DNA of 64,000 nucleotides from Branchiostoma floridae (lineage: Eukaryota; Chordata; Leptocardii; Amphioxiformes; Branchiostomatidae). The notes under the pieces were generated by a model. That model saw only the letters and a list, made by a program, of their open reading frames with translations, searched no databases and was not told the DNA's origin. Below are positions 18,405 to 60,300 of the stretch, in pieces (position 1 is the first letter of the stretch; every line of letters begins with the position of its first letter). The translations under genes and the position numbers were made by a program. The DNA is taken from assembly GCF_000003815.2 (NCBI RefSeq), contig NC_049987.1, positions 1,384,065-1,448,064 on the forward strand, in the 5' to 3' direction.

Positions 18405-18410
18405 GAAGAT
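18405..18410. repeat. 6-bp target-site duplication, left (GAAGAT)
   Basis: GAAGAT lies immediately outside the left end of the inverted-repeat element and is repeated exactly at 22569-22574 outside the right end. Confidence 0.85.
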
Positions 18411-19608
18411 AGTAGTATAGTAGGGACAGGATCACTATTATTATTCAGGAGCAAGAAGGAGCAGGTCAGAGGTCAAATATGATTTATTCGGGCGGAGCAG
18501 GTCATAGGTCAGAGGTCATCGTCTGCTGAGATAATTTATTCAGGAGCGGGTCAGAGGTTATGTTATGACGGCAAAATCTAGGGGAATAGGTATGTTTTTA
18601 GATCTGGTCGGGGTGAAATAGGGGTCAGGCCGCCCTTTTGATAGACAACCCCACCCCAACCCCAAATGAACCTCCCCTCTCCAATCGTGAATGACATGCC
18701 CTTATATGGCCTGGTTCTAAGTCTCTAAGTCAATCAATCGGTTGAATCTGCTGAGATCAGTCTCTAATGGATGCGCTGAAAGCACAAACAACAGACGTCT
18801 TTCGCCAGTTACTATATCACAAAGCCCCAGGCTTGTTTCCCCAACATCGGCGGCTTCCCAGTTCGGTGGAGTACGTAAAAGTAATACAATGGGTGGATAC
18901 GATCTCGGCGGACGAGGAATATGAAAAGATTATAGACAATTTCGTGGATAACGTACCCAACGCGAGGGATGGGCTGAAAACGGTGCTCGAAAAAGTACTG
19001 CAAGAGGAACGATTAAACTGGGGTCGACTCGTTATCGCAATGTCTTTCGCCGCGGACGTATGTGTCAACTTGCACGAACGGTATGACAAAAATACCGACG
19101 CAATCTCGACCGAGTTACCAACGTTGATTTGCAACTATGCGGGAAACTGGTTGTTACACCAACGTGGATGGGACGGATGGATTGACCGTCGCCGGCACGA
19201 CAAGTACCCGTCGTTTGTACAGTGTCTCTGTTGGCTTCTCACTGCACACGTTTGCATCATCGTGACGTACATTTTGCACTGAACACGCCCGAACATGCCC
19301 GAACATGTTAAAACACGCCCACGCACGGTACGCTGGTTGGCCAACGCTAGATGTAATGTTGATTTACATAATTGCATAAAATTATTGCTTTGGAGTAGCT
19401 ATACGTGTTGCTCCGGAGTAAAAACACTGCTCCGGAGTATGCTCCGGAGTAAGTGAGTAACTATATTTGTTGTAAGTATGTATATTTGTCATGCACGTAC
19501 GAACATATCTATATGTACATGCAGTAAAACATTGCTTTGGAGTAACGTATAGTGTTGCTCCGGAGCAAAAACACTGCTCCGGAGTAAAAAATACTGGTCC
19601 GGAGTAAA
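18411..19608. repeat. Left terminal inverted repeat (1,198 bp)
   Basis: Pairs with 21371-22568 in inverted orientation. I saw only three substitutions: ggttatgttatg against ggttattttatg near 18560, cgcaatctc against cgccatctc inside the Bcl-2-like ORF, and attgcataaaatta against attgcataagatta near 19377. Homology stops at 19608, just after ggtccggagtaaa. Confidence 0.85.
18767..19282 (+). CDS. Bcl-2-like protein, left-arm copy (171 aa)
   Basis: Intronless ORF. It carries a BH1 region centred on NWGR (residues 84-87), followed by a hydrophobic helix and a Cys-Val end, as in Bcl-2 relatives. A BH2 region has paired tryptophans in QRGWDGWID (about 131-140). A C-terminal hydrophobic tail (about 150-171) could anchor it in mitochondrial or ER membranes. 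The length of 171 aa fits a compact Bcl-2 fold. A weak BH3-like helix may lie near residues 10-25 but is not convincing. Family members with BH1/BH2 and a tail either block or promote apoptosis; which applies here cannot be told. The ORF points inward from the element end, and an identical protein is encoded on the opposite strand in the other arm. Lack of introns and a place inside a mobile element suggest capture from a host or a viral-type accessory gene. Confidence 0.8.
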   Translation: MDALKAQTTDVFRQLLYHKAPGLFPQHRRLPSSVEYVKVIQWVDTISADEEYEKIIDNFVDNVPNARDGLKTVLEKVLQEERLNWGRLVIAMSFAADVCVNLHERYDKNTDAISTELPTLICNYAGNWLLHQRGWDGWIDRRRHDKYPSFVQCLCWLLTAHVCIIVTYILH

Positions 19609-19870
19609 TGAGTAAGTACATTTGTTGTAATAAGTTAGTACATTTGTTCTGTACGTACGAACATATCTATATGTACATGCAGTGAAACAATGCTTTGGAG
19701 TAACTATACGTGTTGCTCCGGAGTAAAATAAACTGCTCCGGAGTAAAAATAAACTGCTCCGGAGTAAAATAAACTGCTCCGGAGTAATATTAACTGCTCC
19801 GGAGTAAAATAAACTGCTCCGGAGTAAAATAGACTGCTCCGAAGTATGCTCCGGAGTAAATGAGTCAGTA
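19385..19870. repeat. CTCCGGAG palindrome array, left
   Basis: At least twelve perfect CTCCGGAG octamers and two variants occur, mostly spaced by short A/T-rich linkers (such as taaaataaactg). They are grouped into higher-order units that begin near 19385, 19528 and 19685 with gctttggagtaac and end with a conserved tail holding gtacgtacgaacatat and ctatatgtacatgcag. The first 224 bases belong to the terminal repeat; the rest is specific to this side. The assembly gap follows directly. Confidence 0.85.
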
Positions 19871-19938
19871 TATTTGTTGTAATAAGTTAGCATATTTGCC
19901 ATGTACGTACGAACATATACTATCTATATGTAAATGCA

Positions 19939-20300
19939 NNNNNNNNNNNNNNNNNNNNNNNNNNNNNNNNNNNNNNNNNNNNNNNNNNNNNNNNNNNNNN
20001 NNNNNNNNNNNNNNNNNNNNNNNNNNNNNNNNNNNNNNNNNNNNNNNNNNNNNNNNNNNNNNNNNNNNNNNNNNNNNNNNNNNNNNNNNNNNNNNNNNNN
20101 NNNNNNNNNNNNNNNNNNNNNNNNNNNNNNNNNNNNNNNNNNNNNNNNNNNNNNNNNNNNNNNNNNNNNNNNNNNNNNNNNNNNNNNNNNNNNNNNNNNN
20201 NNNNNNNNNNNNNNNNNNNNNNNNNNNNNNNNNNNNNNNNNNNNNNNNNNNNNNNNNNNNNNNNNNNNNNNNNNNNNNNNNNNNNNNNNNNNNNNNNNNN
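19939..20300. other. Assembly gap, 362 N
   Basis: A run of N lies inside the element, immediately after the palindrome array. The true length is unknown from the sequence. Repeats on the left and the long terminal repeats make collapse or mis-sizing likely. Confidence 0.99.
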
Positions 20301-20392
20301 ACGTACGATCCCTAAAAACCTAAATGCCCGACAAATATATGTGTGCACATCAATATCTAATCATTTTCCTTCTGTCCACCGAACAAAAAAGT

Positions 20393-21028
20393 ATGCCTCA
20401 CGTCTGCGAAATTTGTGATCGGGAGTTTGATCGTGCGTTCAACCTCGAGCGTCATCTTGAAAGAAAACACCGAGACAAGTCAGGTGTTGCCTCGGGAGAA
20501 GTCGTCGTTGATGCCGAGACGGGCTCTTACCGGGAGCGCGATGTTTTCGACGACTCCGATGTGTCGTCCGAACACGACAAGGATACGGTTGGTTCCGAAG
20601 ATGGGGATTCGACGGCATCACAAGATGAAGAAAGCGTCTCAGACGCCGAATCTGTGATGGGCTCCGAGCAGGGAGACTCCACAGAAGAAACCGACAGCGA
20701 CCAATGTGGTTCCGAGAGTGATACAGGGACAGATGTGTCTTCCGGAACGGTTTCATCTGATGAAAGTGAATGTACCGGCTACGACAGCGGCTACCAGAGC
20801 GGTGACGAGGAGGAGTGGACACTCTATCGAGACTGGTCCATCGCACTACCTCACCAGCCAGGCGATGTTCCTCAATGCGTCATCAAACAGAAGAAGCGCG
20901 CTGGCAAAAAGTTTTATCTAATAGAGTTCGCTGCATTGCCTCGTTACAGTAATGAGATTGTAGACAGCAAGAACTGGGTGCCAGAACAGACATTGATGAA
21001 AAAATATGGTTACCTCGTCCTGAAGTAA
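20393..21028 (+). CDS. C2H2 zinc finger / acidic / chromo-like protein (211 aa)
   Basis: The start is taken at 20393 because the zinc finger begins three residues later; an in-frame ATG at 20324 would add 23 residues without any motif. The N-terminus has one C2H2 finger (CEICDREFDRAF ... HLERKH, spacing C-x2-C-x12-H-x4-H). Residues about 45-145 are very rich in Ser, Asp, Glu and Gly. The C-terminal 55 residues contain KKFYLIEFAALP and, after a short insertion, NWVPEQTL. This resembles the aromatic cage and WxPExxL ending of a chromodomain. Chromodomains occur at the C-terminus of Polinton and other integrases, where they read chromatin. A role in targeting or in regulating the element is plausible but inferred. 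It is unique to the interior and not part of the terminal repeats. Confidence 0.7.
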   Translation: MPHVCEICDREFDRAFNLERHLERKHRDKSGVASGEVVVDAETGSYRERDVFDDSDVSSEHDKDTVGSEDGDSTASQDEESVSDAESVMGSEQGDSTEETDSDQCGSESDTGTDVSSGTVSSDESECTGYDSGYQSGDEEEWTLYRDWSIALPHQPGDVPQCVIKQKKRAGKKFYLIEFAALPRYSNEIVDSKNWVPEQTLMKKYGYLVLK

Positions 21029-21339
21029 TGTGAGGTCGCCATATCGCTTGCAGTACAATTTTTCTTTCCTAATGTGATACCATATTTGACATATAGGACG
21101 ACATGTGTGTTGGTTATGAATTCCTTAATACAATTTTGATCGCCGTCAAGTAATAGTAAAGTGTTGAGAAACAGGATCACCGTACACAAGTGCCTTTTGT
21201 GTTGTGTTGATATATGCCTACATAACAGACACGTATAAGACTACTACAAAGCAATGATTTCCTGCATGTACATATAGATGACATATGTCCGTACGTACAT
21301 GACAAATATGCTTACCTATAACAAATATACTTACTCATT

Positions 21340-21600
21340 TACTCCGGAGCATACTCCGGAGCAGTTTTATTTTACTCCGGACCAGTATTTTTTACTCCGG
21401 AGCAGTGTTTTTGCTCCGGAGCAACACTATACGTTACTCCAAAGCAATGTTTTACTGCATGTACATATAGATATGTTCGTACGTGCATGACAAATATACA
21501 TACTTACAACAAATATAGTTACTCACTTACTCCGGAGCATACTCCGGAGCAGTGTTTTTACTCCGGAGCAACACGTATAGCTACTCCAAAGCAATAATCT
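21340..21600. repeat. CTCCGGAG palindrome array, right
   Basis: Seven perfect CTCCGGAG octamers plus one variant in this stretch form the mirror image of the inner end of the left array. Higher-order tails with ctatatgtacatgcag are again present (about 21265-21285 and 21455-21475). Bases 21371-21600 lie in the terminal repeat. Unlike the left side, the array is short and no long run of taaaataaactg units is seen. Confidence 0.8.
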
Positions 21601-22568
21601 TATGCAATTATGTAAATCAACATTACATCTAGCGTTGGCCAACCAGCGTACCGTGCGTGGGCGTGTTTTAACATGTTCGGGCATGTTCGGGCGTGTTCAG
21701 TGCAAAATGTACGTCACGATGATGCAAACGTGTGCAGTGAGAAGCCAACAGAGACACTGTACAAACGACGGGTACTTGTCGTGCCGGCGACGGTCAATCC
21801 ATCCGTCCCATCCACGTTGGTGTAACAACCAGTTTCCCGCATAGTTGCAAATCAACGTTGGTAACTCGGTCGAGATGGCGTCGGTATTTTTGTCATACCG
21901 TTCGTGCAAGTTGACACATACGTCCGCGGCGAAAGACATTGCGATAACGAGTCGACCCCAGTTTAATCGTTCCTCTTGCAGTACTTTTTCGAGCACCGTT
22001 TTCAGCCCATCCCTCGCGTTGGGTACGTTATCCACGAAATTGTCTATAATCTTTTCATATTCCTCGTCCGCCGAGATCGTATCCACCCATTGTATTACTT
22101 TTACGTACTCCACCGAACTGGGAAGCCGCCGATGTTGGGGAAACAAGCCTGGGGCTTTGTGATATAGTAACTGGCGAAAGACGTCTGTTGTTTGTGCTTT
22201 CAGCGCATCCATTAGAGACTGATCTCAGCAGATTCAACCGATTGATTGACTTAGAGACTTAGAACCAGGCCATATAAGGGCATGTCATTCACGATTGGAG
22301 AGGGGAGGTTCATTTGGGGTTGGGGTGGGGTTGTCTATCAAAAGGGCGGCCTGACCCCTATTTCACCCCGACCAGATCTAAAAACATACCTATTCCCCTA
22401 GATTTTGCCGTCATAAAATAACCTCTGACCCGCTCCTGAATAAATTATCTCAGCAGACGATGACCTCTGACCTATGACCTGCTCCGCCCGAATAAATCAT
22501 ATTTGACCTCTGACCTGCTCCTTCTTGCTCCTGAATAATAATAGTGATCCTGTCCCTACTATACTACT
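21371..22568. repeat. Right terminal inverted repeat (1,198 bp)
   Basis: Inverted copy of 18411-19608 of exactly equal length. It is followed by GAAGAT (22569-22574), which matches the six bases before the left end. Confidence 0.85.
21697..22212 (-). CDS. Bcl-2-like protein, right-arm copy (171 aa)
   Basis: Same protein as the left-arm copy, residue for residue as far as read, encoded on the opposite strand so that both genes point into the element. The only nucleotide difference noted in the ORF is a synonymous change in an alanine codon. BH1 (NWGR), BH2 (GWDGW) and the C-terminal membrane tail are intact. Having the gene inside the terminal repeat means every transposition duplicates it, and gene conversion between arms can keep both copies functional. 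Confidence 0.8.
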   Translation of the reverse strand: MDALKAQTTDVFRQLLYHKAPGLFPQHRRLPSSVEYVKVIQWVDTISADEEYEKIIDNFVDNVPNARDGLKTVLEKVLQEERLNWGRLVIAMSFAADVCVNLHERYDKNTDAISTELPTLICNYAGNWLLHQRGWDGWIDRRRHDKYPSFVQCLCWLLTAHVCIIVTYILH

Positions 22569-22574
22569 GAAGAT
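22569..22574. repeat. 6-bp target-site duplication, right (GAAGAT)
   Basis: Exact repeat of 18405-18410, directly adjoining the element end. Confidence 0.85.
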
Positions 22575-49700: not shown

Positions 49701-51875
49701 TACTACCAACAGATAAACTTTTAATTTAGCATTGACTATCCACTGATATAAGGTGCGCTGCAAATGATAAAAATGCATTTCCATTGATATGCGTACCGTT
49801 CTTTTTAATCTCAAGGAATAGCCGAAGAGCCTTATGGTCCGAAGTGGAAGGAACACCGTAAGTTCGCCATGATGAGTCTGCGTGACTTCGGAGTTGGAAA
49901 GAGAAGCCTGGAGGGGAAGATTCTTGAAGAAGCACGTGCTCTAGGTGATGAGATCTGTAAAACAAACGGACGCCCATTTTGTATCTCTCAGATGATGCAG
50001 AATGCTGTTTCCAACGTCATCTGTTCAATTGTGTTCGGTAGTCGTTATGAGTACGACGACATGGTGTTCAAAAGCCTTCTAAAAGCGATTCAACGAGTTT
50101 TTGGAAGAAAAATGGTGGATTTTTTGGCAGAACAATTACCTCCTTTAAAGGTCCTCCCCGGCGTACGCAAAGACTACCAAGACCTTATGCAGAGTCAGGC
50201 TAAAATCATGGACCACATCAAGGAAAGAATCAGGGAGCACGAGGATACATTTGACACGAATGACATACGAGACTTAATTGACGCATTTCTTCTCGAGTCT
50301 AAAAAACGACAGACGTACGAAAACAACACATTTACTGAGCAAGAACTTGCTACTGTAAGATATAATTTAGACTTACGAATTTCCCCATATGCAATTTCTT
50401 TCAAATAATAAAGGACTTTTTAAAATGATATTTTTCAGCTATACGTAATTGTGACTATGTAAGTGTGCAAAATGTGTTCTTTTTGTTTTTTTTTATTGCA
50501 TGTATCTTACATGTTTTATGCATTACACAATTATATATACGTAAATATTGAGCCGGCAATAAAACATGACACCGATACATAATTTTCCCCAAGATCGTCT
50601 ATCAACTGTTCCTGGCAGGAACTGACACAACAGCTACCACCTTACGTTGGGCCCTGCTTTACATGATTCTCCATCCGGACATCCAGGAGAAAGTACAGCA
50701 GGAGATAGACAGCGTTCTGGGACCCAACCAGGAGCCGGCAATGGCACATCGTAATCAGGTAAGAACCGAAGTGCCAATGATAAAGCGATGTCTAAAAAAA
50801 TATATTTTCTTTAGTACGCAAGTTTTGGTTTATAATAAATAGTGTTAGTAAAATGGTAGTTATCACGGTGTAGACATTTCTTGGGCCTTAGATTTTTAGA
50901 TTAGATTTTAGCTTTAGATCTGCCTTCGATTCGTGTCCTGCTCGAAGCTTATGTCACGTGACATACGACAGAAAGTGTGACGTCAGCAATGGGTCAAATG
51001 TGCTCTACAGTCAGTATCATCCCAGTCTAAGTTAAAGCATGTTTGAAGCACTTTAATGTCAATAGCCTCTTTATTACTCCTTAGTAATGCTGTTCAGTGT
51101 CGAAATATATTATATGATAAAAATATATTATGAATTCAATATTAATCAAAATTTTACTAAATGTTTGTAAAATATAGATGCCTTACACGGAGGCGACCCT
51201 AACGGAAGTGAGCCGACACGCTACTGTTGCGCCACATACCATTCCGCACGCTACGAGCAACGATACAACATTCAGGGGGTATGACATCCCAAAGGTAGGT
51301 TAGGAATGTTGTGTAATATGTTTATATAACGTATATTGCAATTTTAAAGTTAAATGACTGTTTTAAGGAAGCCACCTATGCTAGCTTACATTATATCTTA
51401 GACTTGGTTTTCAATACCATATACTACAACAGTCAACATAAATGATTATTTCGTAATTTTCCTATCAGTTAGATTTTAGCCTTAACAAAAAGTTGTATCA
51501 TATATTTATTAGTTTTGTACATATATAAAAATGACCTAATGCCTTCATGAATACTGACAAAATTGAAACATATTTGAATACATGAGAATTTTGCGAGAAC
51601 ATTATGTCTGTTTTTCTAAATAAGGGCACAGTGTTGGAAGTTATTCTATGGTCAGTGCACCATGACCCAAACCTGTGGCCGGAGCCGGACAAGTTTGACC
51701 CTAACCGCTTCATTAATGACGCCGGGAAATATGTGAAGAGAGAGGGAGTTATTCCGTTCTCCCTTGGTAAGTCTAAAAATGCAACATACTTATTACCTCC
51801 ATGTATTATACTGGCGTGTGTGTGTGCATGTGTTTGTGTGTTTGTGTGTGTGTGTTTGTGTGTGTGTGTTTGTGT

Positions 51876-57319: not shown

Positions 57320-60300
57320 TCAATCCCTTGGTTCAGCAATAAGCTTGAATGGCACAGGGTGATGCAATGCTGCATGGATCCCTTTCTCAGAAGGCTTAGG
57401 AGCGCCCTCTGGCAGCTTGAAGGTGAAGCGCTGCAGCAGAGATGTGAAAAAGAGGAAGAGCTCCATCCTGGCCAGTTGTTCACCAAGACAGACACGACGG
57501 CCTGGGAAAAACAAGTTTGTGTTCAATATACATAAATGATACCTTAAATATATTTGTATATGTATTGTTTCAATTCTCTTTTCCCCATTTATTCTTAGAA
57601 AACGAAATCCATTTCATAATTGCACAGATTTACAAATAGTCCATATTTCTGTTCTAGGTTAAACCAAGTATCTTCGTGAACAGTTTAATGAATTCTCATA
57701 GAAAACACCGTATTATTCTCTCGCTTTTATTAACATGTTTAATAATGCATTAATACTACTTTAAAATGTTAAAGTACCAGAAATAAACAATGTTATCTTA
57801 CCAATGGAGAACGCAAGTACTTCATTCCTCTTCACATATTTGCCCTCGTCATTCAGAAAGCGAGTGGGGTCAAACTTGTCCGGCTCCGGCCACAGGTTTG
57901 GGTCATGGTGCACGGACCAGATGTTTACTGTCACCGACGTGTTCTAAGTAAGAAAACAAATAAAATGTTAATATTAGAGCGTATTATATCATATCATATC
58001 ATATCATATCATATCATATCATATCATATCATATAATTGCAAACCATATTTGACCAAAGTAAATATCCTTTGTCAAACCAGCCGACTATTTTTTCGGTGG
58101 TCTTCAGTGTCTCAGATTTTCGATTTTGCACTACTATAAATACAGTTTATATTTGAAAGGTATATCATTTCTTCTGACGAACGCCTTACCTTTGGGATGT
58201 TGTACCCCCTGAATGCTGTATCGTTGCTCGTGCCGTGGGGGATGGTCATCGGCGTCACAGATGCCAGTCGGCTCACTTCTGCCAGTGTGGCCTCCGTGAA
58301 TGGCATCTATTTTCAAACATTATACGGCCAATGTTAGCAGCTTTGAAATGTACATCTAACGTCATTTTAAGTGAAATACATTTCATGAACAAGAAATTAG
58401 TGTGATTCAATGGAAATGTCTGTGTATTTGACTTTGCTCACATCGGTTACCGCTAGGTCACAATAAAATCATTTTTTAACTACAAAAAATGATTTGATTT
58501 CATTAGGACTTCTGACTTGGCTACGATGTGCCATTGCCGGCTCCTGGTTGGGTCCCAGCACGCTGTCTATCTCCTGCTGTACTTTCTCCTGAATGTCCGG
58601 ATGGAGGATCATGTAGAGCAGGGCCCAACGTAAGGTGGTAGATGTTGTGTCAGTTCCTGCCACGAACAGTTGATAGACGATCTTGGGCGATAAAAACATC
58701 GTTTGTTTACATTCAGACAGACAAGGACACTTGGCACTGCAATCGAATTTTAGTAATTTTCTAAAACAGTGACACATACAACGAAGAGAAAGAAGGTTAA
58801 TGCAGTCCTCTAGACTCTTCCAGGCCCTTTGGGCATGATATTCTATGTCGAAGCCTTTTGCCACCTTTTACCCCTTTTCTTTCAGCCTTAGTGGAGTAAG
58901 GAAAGTCGTCCTAATGGCGAAAGATCGGTGACATGGACCCCAAGGCTCTGTTTGTGCCACCCAAAACAATTTTTGTTTGTATTTAAAAGAAATTGTAATG
59001 TATGTTTTAAATGTTCATGGTTTTGTCATTAAAAATCTTCTACGCAGTGGAAATTAATGTAATGACTGGTGCCTGCACGACTCATAACCCCAACTTATAT
59101 ACTGAATCCCATTTTTTTTACAAATACGTTCTCAAATGCTACGGTTGTTGAAACAGAAGTACTATTACATAATGTCATGAAGATTATATCTTACCGCGGC
59201 ATGTTCCTGCTCAGTAAATGTAGAGTTCTCGTCTCCCTGCCGTTTTTTAGACTCCAAGAGAAATGCGTCAATAAAATCACGGATGTCCTTAGGGTCAAAA
59301 GTGTCTTCGTGTTCTTTGATTCTGTCCCTAATGTGGTTTATGAGTTTTGCCTGGTTCCGTTTAAGTTTTTGAAACGGCTTCCTAACTCCTGGTAGGATCC
59401 TCATTGGACGAAAGACTTGCGCAAATATCACTGCAAAGCTTCGAGAGAATACTCCATTTATTGCATTTAGAAGATCTTTGAATGCCATGTCATCATACTC
59501 ATAACGGCGGCCGAACACAATTGAACAGATGACGTTAGAAACAGCATTCTGCATCATCTGAGAGATACAAAATGGTCGTCCTTCTGTTTTGCAGATCTCA
59601 TCACCAAGACCTCGTGCCTCTTCGAGAATCTTCCCCTCAAGACTTCTCTTCCCAACTCCGAAGTCACGCAAACTCATCATGGCGAACTTACGGTGCTCCT
59701 TCAACTTGGGACCATAAGGTTCAGCGGCTATTCCTGAAGGTCAAAATAAAAGTAACTTAGAGAGACCAAGACAACAGCTAAGAATCGCAATGCATTGAAG
59801 CGGTTAATATCAAAACTTACATGGATTTCGCATCAAATATGAATACATGATAAACAGCTTGTCTTTAAGCATGTCCGTCGTCATATGTATTCTGTGACAT
59901 ATGTGGTACTAGTTTAATTACACTCTAAACGGTCTTTTAAAAAACCGGAATGGAAGAACATTATCATTTAAAAATGCCAATTTGATATGTCAGATGGGTC
60001 TTTAACCTAATGAAAAGTCCGTATGATTAACAAAGCCATTGTGTTGACTTACCAAGTGTCTTTCCATCTGGAGTCCTCATTGCGTGAGACGGCGAACGGC
60101 TGGAGAAGTTCTCCGCGTTCTTCACCAGTGCCTCGTGGATCGCGGCGTAACCGTTCAGAACTATCGTCAGTCTGGGACCAAAATACACGGTAAAGACGTC
60201 ACCGTACTTCTTTGACCAGTCGGTATAGACCAGCGGAAGAGCACCCTGTTGATGATACAACCCATGTCAACACTTTGGTTTTAGCGGAAATGTATGGTGA

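Follow-up and report, generated by a model that had tools for sequence, protein, structure and literature searches.

Bcl-2-family genes in both terminal inverted repeats of a short Polinton-like element of Branchiostoma floridae

The window analyzed here is a stretch of 64,000 nucleotides from the lancelet Branchiostoma floridae (C9:1384065-1448064; C numbers denote contigs), taken from a searched genome of 513 Mb in 431 contigs. It contains a 4,158-bp element at window positions 18411-22568, with the hexanucleotide GAAGAT on either side and ends that read AGTAGTATAGTAG...CTACTATACTACT. The two terminal inverted repeats (arms) are essentially identical: the repeat program reported 100% complementarity, and two mismatches were seen by eye. 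One of these is synonymous in an open reading frame (ORF) of the Bcl-2 family, and both arms encode the same protein. The following features were identified, with coordinates given as window positions.

18405..18410, no strand: left target-site duplication, GAAGAT
18411..19608, + strand: left terminal inverted repeat (arm), 1,198 nt
18411..18423, + strand: terminal motif AGTAGTATAGTAG, an (AGT)2 Maverick-type end (genome pattern matches; end motif as described in the available parts of PMC8097293)
18700..18709, + strand: CCTTATATGG (CArG-like) box, 67 nt 5' of the Bcl-2 ATG
18767..19282, + strand: Bcl-2-family ORF, 171 aa, left arm
19373..19938, + strand: TGCTCCGGAGTA-type minisatellite inward of Bcl-2, partly within the arm (repeat program)
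19939..20300, no strand: assembly gap, 362 N (from the sequence)
20324..21028, + strand: C2H2 zinc-finger ORF, 234 aa, or 211 aa from the ATG at 20393 (ORF list, Pfam)
21263..21606, - strand: the same TGCTCCGGAGTA-type minisatellite, right side (repeat program)
21371..22568, - strand: right terminal inverted repeat (arm), 1,198 nt
21697..22212, - strand: Bcl-2-family ORF, 171 aa, right arm
22270..22279, - strand: CCTTATATGG box of the right arm at the mirror position (read from the sequence)
22556..22568, - strand: terminal motif, right end
22569..22574, no strand: right target-site duplication, GAAGAT

The 171-aa ORF matched the Pfam Bcl-2 family with an E value of 4.4e-12 (46.9 bits; cut-off 31.4). 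In sequence searches against solved structures, the best matches were Mcl-1 (E 1e-6) and BCL2A1 (E 5e-6), which extended across the BH1 motif NWGR and BH2; NWGR and QRGWDG of the ORF align to Mcl-1. The protein ends in a hydrophobic tail, with a 19-residue hydropathy maximum of 1.92 starting at residue 151. Most of the listed copies have a stop after about residue 167, which the window copy lost, so that it runs to residue 171. Protein searches with this ORF returned two entries each time, one of them the window's own. Judged by these alignments, the arm ORF is a Bcl-2 family member; a pro-survival function of its product has, in our estimate, about an even chance. An earlier sequence-only reading of the locus had proposed 1,198-bp near-identical inverted repeats, AG...CT ends with a perfect GAAGAT duplication and, in both arms, an intact Bcl-2-like ORF with BH1, BH2 and a membrane tail that should align as Bcl-2. 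The sequence bears these proposals out, with the tail seen as a hydrophobic one. That reading, which also suggested a possible protection of germ cells, had not mentioned the 362-bp N gap and the zinc-finger ORF between the arms.

The DNA between the arms contains more of a TCCGGAGTA-type minisatellite, the gap and the zinc-finger ORF. The zinc-finger protein has an acidic middle and a conserved C-terminus, and belongs to a Branchiostoma multi-copy family (B. floridae, B. belcheri). It is 97% identical to a B. floridae entry; of its 37 relatives, 35 carry a Branchiostoma name and two carry none, and 13 are named 'Crystallin, lambda 1'. The resemblance of the C-terminus to an integrase chromodomain was weak and is a lead at most: 34 and 65 of 5,000 shuffles were equally good, and the hhalign probability was 2.3. 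ORF inspection and Pfam searches revealed no integrase, PolB, protease, ATPase or capsid gene in the readable window element, with the 362-bp gap unread. With no transposition gene in its readable sequence, the window element is best taken as a non-autonomous derivative.

To count related termini, we used the 18-nt terminal pattern AGTAGTATAGTAGNNACA, which occurs at 83 places in the genome, versus 0 for the reversed pattern that served as control. Manual pairing assigned 54 of the 83 termini to 27 inward-facing pairs, spanning 65 bp to 24 kb. Together with two variant-end elements (C15:10.75M and C11:0.08M), these make 29 elements with both ends recognized, 25 of which have exact 6-bp duplications, and the sequence-only reading had looked to such genomic copies as a check of its proposal. 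A genome search with the window arm gave at least 144 match rows from the 40 candidates that were scored out of 200. A pattern search of viral contigs yielded seven matches, none of which was confirmed. Five of the 27 pairs carry Bcl-2 in both arms (window, C1:26.98M, C5:27.58M, C18 and C9:15.29M) and seven carry fragments of a ribonucleotide reductase gene in both arms. Nine are short elements with neither gene in the ends read (1.2-1.7 kb per side, three elements read whole), four are larger Polintons (C15, C2, C158 and the long C12 element), and C7 and C13 are ambiguous. Therefore, Bcl-2 is one of several cargoes in the short elements and not a fixed part of the ends.

Three of the larger relatives, which were read in pieces only, carry the family ends and exact duplications (C15:3688421-3705755, C2:3827921-3843025 and C158:1539765-1556408). 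All three have PolB-type ORFs, named after 30% identity over 134 aa to the PolB of C19 (E 3e-15) and motifs recognized by eye. The C158 ORF is a zinc-finger PolB-type start, and the PolB-type region of C2 is divided between two ORFs. Integrase is present in two of the four larger elements, C158 (rve, E 4e-13) and the long C12 element. An A32-type ATPase was found in C15 (E 2e-5) and an ATPase-like ORF in C2. C15 also has a protease-like ORF (Peptidase_C5, E 8e-4, 19.5 bits, below the Pfam cut-off of 21.3) and an ORF that we take to be capsid-like, which had no Pfam or PDB match. At one end of C15 and C2, a PC4-like gene is followed by Bcl-2 and then by a second PC4-like gene; in C158 and C12, integrase follows the second PC4-like gene. 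The opposite end of the larger Polintons encodes the small subunit of ribonucleotide reductase (Pfam E 3.6e-116 in C15; also in C2, C158 and C12), with open ORFs of 345 aa in C15 and 344 aa in C2. The corresponding loci are given below.

L071:1159-2196, L074:894-1928, L059:2-721: reductase small subunit and PC4-like genes of larger Polintons

Because the terminal repeats of C15, C2 and C158 are only about 190-265 bp long, Bcl-2 lies outside the repeat and is single in C15 and C2; C158 retains a Bcl-2 remnant. The Polinton-like identity put forward by the sequence-only reading is upheld by the same ends on larger elements with Polinton genes, and is refined here to a non-autonomous derivative. 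The larger elements that it expected to share these ends were found, with integrase, PolB-type and capsid-like genes in the parts read; no single one was shown to have the full set. A Pfam DNA_pol_B_2 scan located PolB in five other regions (C5, C12:14.28M, C7:18.09M, C19 and C9:0.96M), with no exact terminus match within 400 kb of them; C15, C2, C158 and the long C12 element were absent from its matches. The PolB-type ORF at L060:2132-3877 has a weak match to Vsr mismatch endonuclease near residues 101-162 (E 0.004).

The long C12 element (C12:19841177-19865099) is flanked by a GTTCTC duplication (6/6). It has an open 393-aa integrase ORF, 95.7% identical to that of C158 over 276 aa, as well as a PolB-type start and the second PC4-like gene, and its other end carries reductase. 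One of its termini is a window-type arm in a single copy, with repeat, CArG-like box and Bcl-2 (82% identity over 973 nt), and this end is without the first PC4-like gene. By this alignment, the window arm is shown to be homologous to one end of C12 in its terminal repeat, leader box and Bcl-2 gene. The long C12 element is thus a plausible candidate intermediate, with the look expected of an ancestor of the short Bcl-2 elements before end duplication.

Next, the paired arms were compared. Bcl-2 lies in both arms of 11 inverted pairs, so that its doubling inside the transposition ends, as claimed by the sequence-only reading, holds for these pairs but not for every copy, as shown by C15 and C2. 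Seven of the pairs are delimited (window, C1:26.98M, C5:27.58M, C15:10.75M, C18:12.34M, C9:15.29M and C11:0.08M), one of them with a 5/6 duplication; the ends or duplications of the remaining four (C7:19.10M, C3:33.31M, C5:0.70M and C14:20.8M) are unsettled, and the C3, C5:0.70M and C14 pairs are outside the set of 29 elements. At least one full-length Bcl-2 ORF is present in 8 of the 11 pairs. Arm-to-arm identity was 94-99.8% in seven of the ten pairs compared, and the window arm is 78-91% identical to most other copies. In the seven short elements with reductase in both arms, the reductase was truncated in every case, to at most 266 of 345 residues. The loci concerned are listed below.

L080, L081, L084-L089, L092-L095, L098, L099: reductase-in-arms loci

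Thus, of Bcl-2 and reductase, only Bcl-2 occurs whole in arms. The 20.6-kb element C11:79134-99753 was also considered as a full-length Polinton and dropped after three interior pieces (8.5 kb) were examined: two contain LINE-like and DIRS-like retroelement ORFs (by reading), and the third contains short ORFs only.

The Bcl-2 frame is full-length at 23 or more of 40 loci; the filter used missed at least one intact copy (L038), and the right arm of the window was left out of this set. Median pairwise dN/dS was 0.43, computed over the 240 of 253 pairs whose dS exceeded 0.03. A codon model gave omega of about 0.57 for 23 copies (2dlnL 20.4 versus omega=1) and about 0.58 for the 19 copies without an upstream PC4-like gene (2dlnL 14.5 versus omega=1), a set that includes copies of unsettled element type, some of which may lie in larger elements. 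In the omega=1 fit, kappa was fixed at 2.5 and not at its fitted value, so that as many as 2 degrees of freedom may be used in the test. Indels were compared at 33 loci taken regardless of whether their frames were intact. Per 100 substitutions, the coding region had 2.0 frameshifting indels (24 per 1,219), compared to 8.3 in the downstream region (17 per 206) and 33.8 in the leader (105 per 311). Because the leader holds variable C-runs, the 12-fold figure is too high, and the Fisher value of 6e-38 is not a probability because inherited events were counted repeatedly. The honest range for frameshift depletion in the coding region is 4- to 12-fold.

The leader box also appears to be retained. 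The sequence CCTTAT[A/T]TGG is located 40-67 nt 5' of the ATG in all 19 intact copies without an upstream PC4-like gene, whereas the four copies with this gene upstream (two of which are C15 and C2) have TATATA instead. By manual count, CCTTATTTGG occurs in 40 of the 50 end sequences of 25 elements, larger ones included; any such box was found on one strand in 8% of random 700-bp pieces of the window. The CCTTATATGG-type leader box fits the CArG consensus and may be a promoter.

We consider it probable that the window element is a non-autonomous Branchiostoma Polinton/Maverick in which a Bcl-2-bearing end was duplicated in inverse and the ORF was kept for cell survival. Its membership in the Polintons, as a derivative, is practically certain, and inverted end duplication is a likely origin of the double Bcl-2. 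According to this explanation, a full-length ancestor would first have lost the PC4-like gene between repeat and Bcl-2, either by deletion or by exchange with the subterminal DNA of the other end, so that Bcl-2 came to adjoin the repeat and its inward CArG-like box. An inverted copy of the Bcl-2 end would then have replaced the other end, possibly by strand switching or panhandle copying in protein-primed replication, which would place the gene at both ends. The short element would move in trans via the integrase and polymerase of larger relatives, with replication keeping the arms alike. The ORF would stay readable, and its Bcl-2-type product with a hydrophobic tail would most likely keep the infected or transposing cell alive. 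A mechanical origin is favored because arm growth can catch either end, with Bcl-2 or with reductase.

Several observations weigh against this explanation. None of the larger elements was shown to have the full gene set, and sequence may hide in the 362-N gap of the window. Over positions 1-317, the arm is also similar to the ends of C2 and C158 on the reductase side (68-71%); because of this resemblance, the loss of the PC4-like gene may represent an exchange between ends. Four of the 29 elements have no exact duplication (C9:15286031, 5/6; C12:3154272, 2/6 in register; C7 and C13, none), and the Bcl-2 pairs C3 and C5:0.70M showed no clean duplication. In C7, C11 and C3, arm-to-arm identity is no more than 83-86%. 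In nine of the 21 short paired-end elements, the ends read lack both Bcl-2 and reductase, and some of these elements have arms that are 99.8% alike (C15:2307771), which indicates that Bcl-2 is dispensable for mobility. Of the 40 Bcl-2 loci, 17 fail the full-length filter. The leader is a poor indel control, with its variable C-runs, and shared indels were counted more than once. Finally, pN/pS was about 1 in the closest and most recent clades, on few changes; such values would be expected under selection on lineages that are still copying, as opposed to copies that have settled.

One alternative is that Bcl-2 is a bystander, which happened to lie in the duplicated end and is useless to the short element, with frames inherited from larger Polintons. 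The capture of reductase in both arms in seven further short elements, the nine short elements with neither gene, pN/pS of about 1 in the youngest Bcl-2 clades and the presence of Bcl-2 in the larger elements are all consistent with such a bystander. It was given more weight because of those nine elements and the poor leader control. A bystander would not readily account for the difference between the two genes, with the arm reductase truncated in 7/7 elements (at most 266/345 aa) and Bcl-2 full-length in at least 23/40 loci. Nor would it readily account for the leader box kept in 19/19 intact copies without the upstream PC4-like gene, or for the frame kept in those 19 (omega about 0.58, 2dlnL 14.5), some of which may be in larger elements. 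We therefore regard a useless Bcl-2 as possible, though somewhat doubtful. A bolder reading is that the short elements form a lineage of Polinton satellites, which would use the integrase and polymerase of larger Polintons and carry repeats that act as paired, promoter-driven survival cassettes. Double dose and arm homogenization would be favored for keeping the host cell alive during copying of the element, and the zinc-finger protein would be the element's own regulator. This proposal is tentative and rather unlikely as a whole.

Other alternatives fared poorly. An assembly artefact, in which one arm was duplicated in inverse around the N gap, could be suspected from the 362-bp gap and the nearly identical arms. 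However, the flanks differ and yet have the exact duplication in common, and Bcl-2 is found in both arms of ten further inverted pairs (arms 83-99% alike in the nine compared), which makes an artefact very improbable. A host-domesticated Bcl-2 gene that sits in transposon ends and serves the animal would agree with the preserved frame, but is equally hard to reconcile with many dispersed copies that have element-specific duplications, and with a 12-row tree that places the copies with the Polinton gene of C19, apart from host-like sequences. The absence of a recognized integrase, PolB or capsid gene in the readable window element might suggest that a different superfamily of transposons, without relation to Polintons but likewise making 6-bp duplications, acquired Bcl-2. 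This is hardly credible, since the ends and the Bcl-2 region recur on elements in which integrase, PolB-type, ATPase, protease-like and capsid-like genes were found.

A second Polinton family is represented by C19:818257-835386, which has PolB and an integrase with chromodomain. Its 169-aa Bcl-2 ORF lies about 145 nt inside the right repeat (L050:592-1101, corresponding to C19:834391-834900) and is 25% identical to the window Bcl-2 (E 8e-13). This element is embedded in an AC repeat, so that its flanking duplication cannot be judged. In the 12-row protein tree, which left out three of five host-type loci, the Polinton genes of the family and of C19 are separated from host-like sequences; we treat this as a lead. 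The C19 gene and the tree suggest that the near-end placing of Bcl-2 may be old in these elements.

Gene doubling at the ends of linear DNA genomes has a parallel in poxviruses, where host-interaction genes are duplicated in the inverted terminal repeats by repeat expansion. Poxviruses are an unrelated virus family and not non-autonomous transposons, with the doubling of genes at the ends alike. For adenoviruses, a literature search for inverted end duplications was without result. In the available parts of PMC8097293, vertebrate Mavericks are described with (AGT)2//(ACT)2 ends, (AGT)n or (AG)n end motifs and 6-bp duplications. The lancelet elements resemble them in their (AGT)2 ends, terminal inverted repeats and exact 6-bp duplications, and the larger relatives also in their integrase, PolB-type and ATPase genes. 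In contrast to the vertebrate elements of that paper, the window element is 4.2 kb long, lacks those genes in its readable sequence and has a whole gene inside its repeats. The terms bcl, ribonucleotide and nonautonomous (so spelt) are absent from the main text of PMC8097293, and apopto appears once, in the reference list. Likewise, bcl, Branchiostoma, lancelet and amphioxus are absent from the main text of the adintovirus paper PMC11071296, whose available passages describe no gene inside terminal repeats, unlike the window element. Planarian Burro retrotransposons of the Gypsy type, in the passages available from PMC6431247, have a BCL2-like motif and are likewise transposons with a Bcl-2-like domain. 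Unlike in the window element, this domain is within the polyprotein of a retrotransposon and not in the ends. No published report was found of Polintons whose terminal repeats hold a Bcl-2 gene or of amphioxus Polintons with Bcl-2 genes, in a search that included the available parts of PMC2836005 and PMC6943099, with subscription literature mostly outside its scope. Since larger Polintons, their short derivatives and a likely intermediate occur together in one genome, this genome offers a stepwise view of how viral-type repeats swallow genes. The natural comparison between Bcl-2, often whole in the arms, and reductase, always broken there, addresses whether a transposon selects for host-cell survival.

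Minor observations were made at other termini and in the remainder of the window. A 65-bp element at C9:19250864-19250928 (L066:101-165) consists of little beyond two termini and has an exact 6-bp duplication, GACGTG. On C7 (L019:150-222), a terminus is located directly 3' of a PolB-type zinc-finger start, an arrangement suggestive of the insertion of one Polinton into another. C13:9091573-9107535 was rejected as an element because its flanks are inverted too (TAACTT/AAGTTA), which indicates a larger palindrome. This near-perfect palindrome (C13:9091200-9107900; L053, L054 and L058) has Polinton termini, and its arms carry a PC4-like gene together with a divergent Bcl-2 fragment; its interior contains a second, host-like Bcl-2 ORF and possibly a dUTPase-like ORF (by eye). 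Outside the element, window positions 49809-50408 and 59165-59740 contain two cytochrome P450 exon-like ORFs on opposite strands (by eye).

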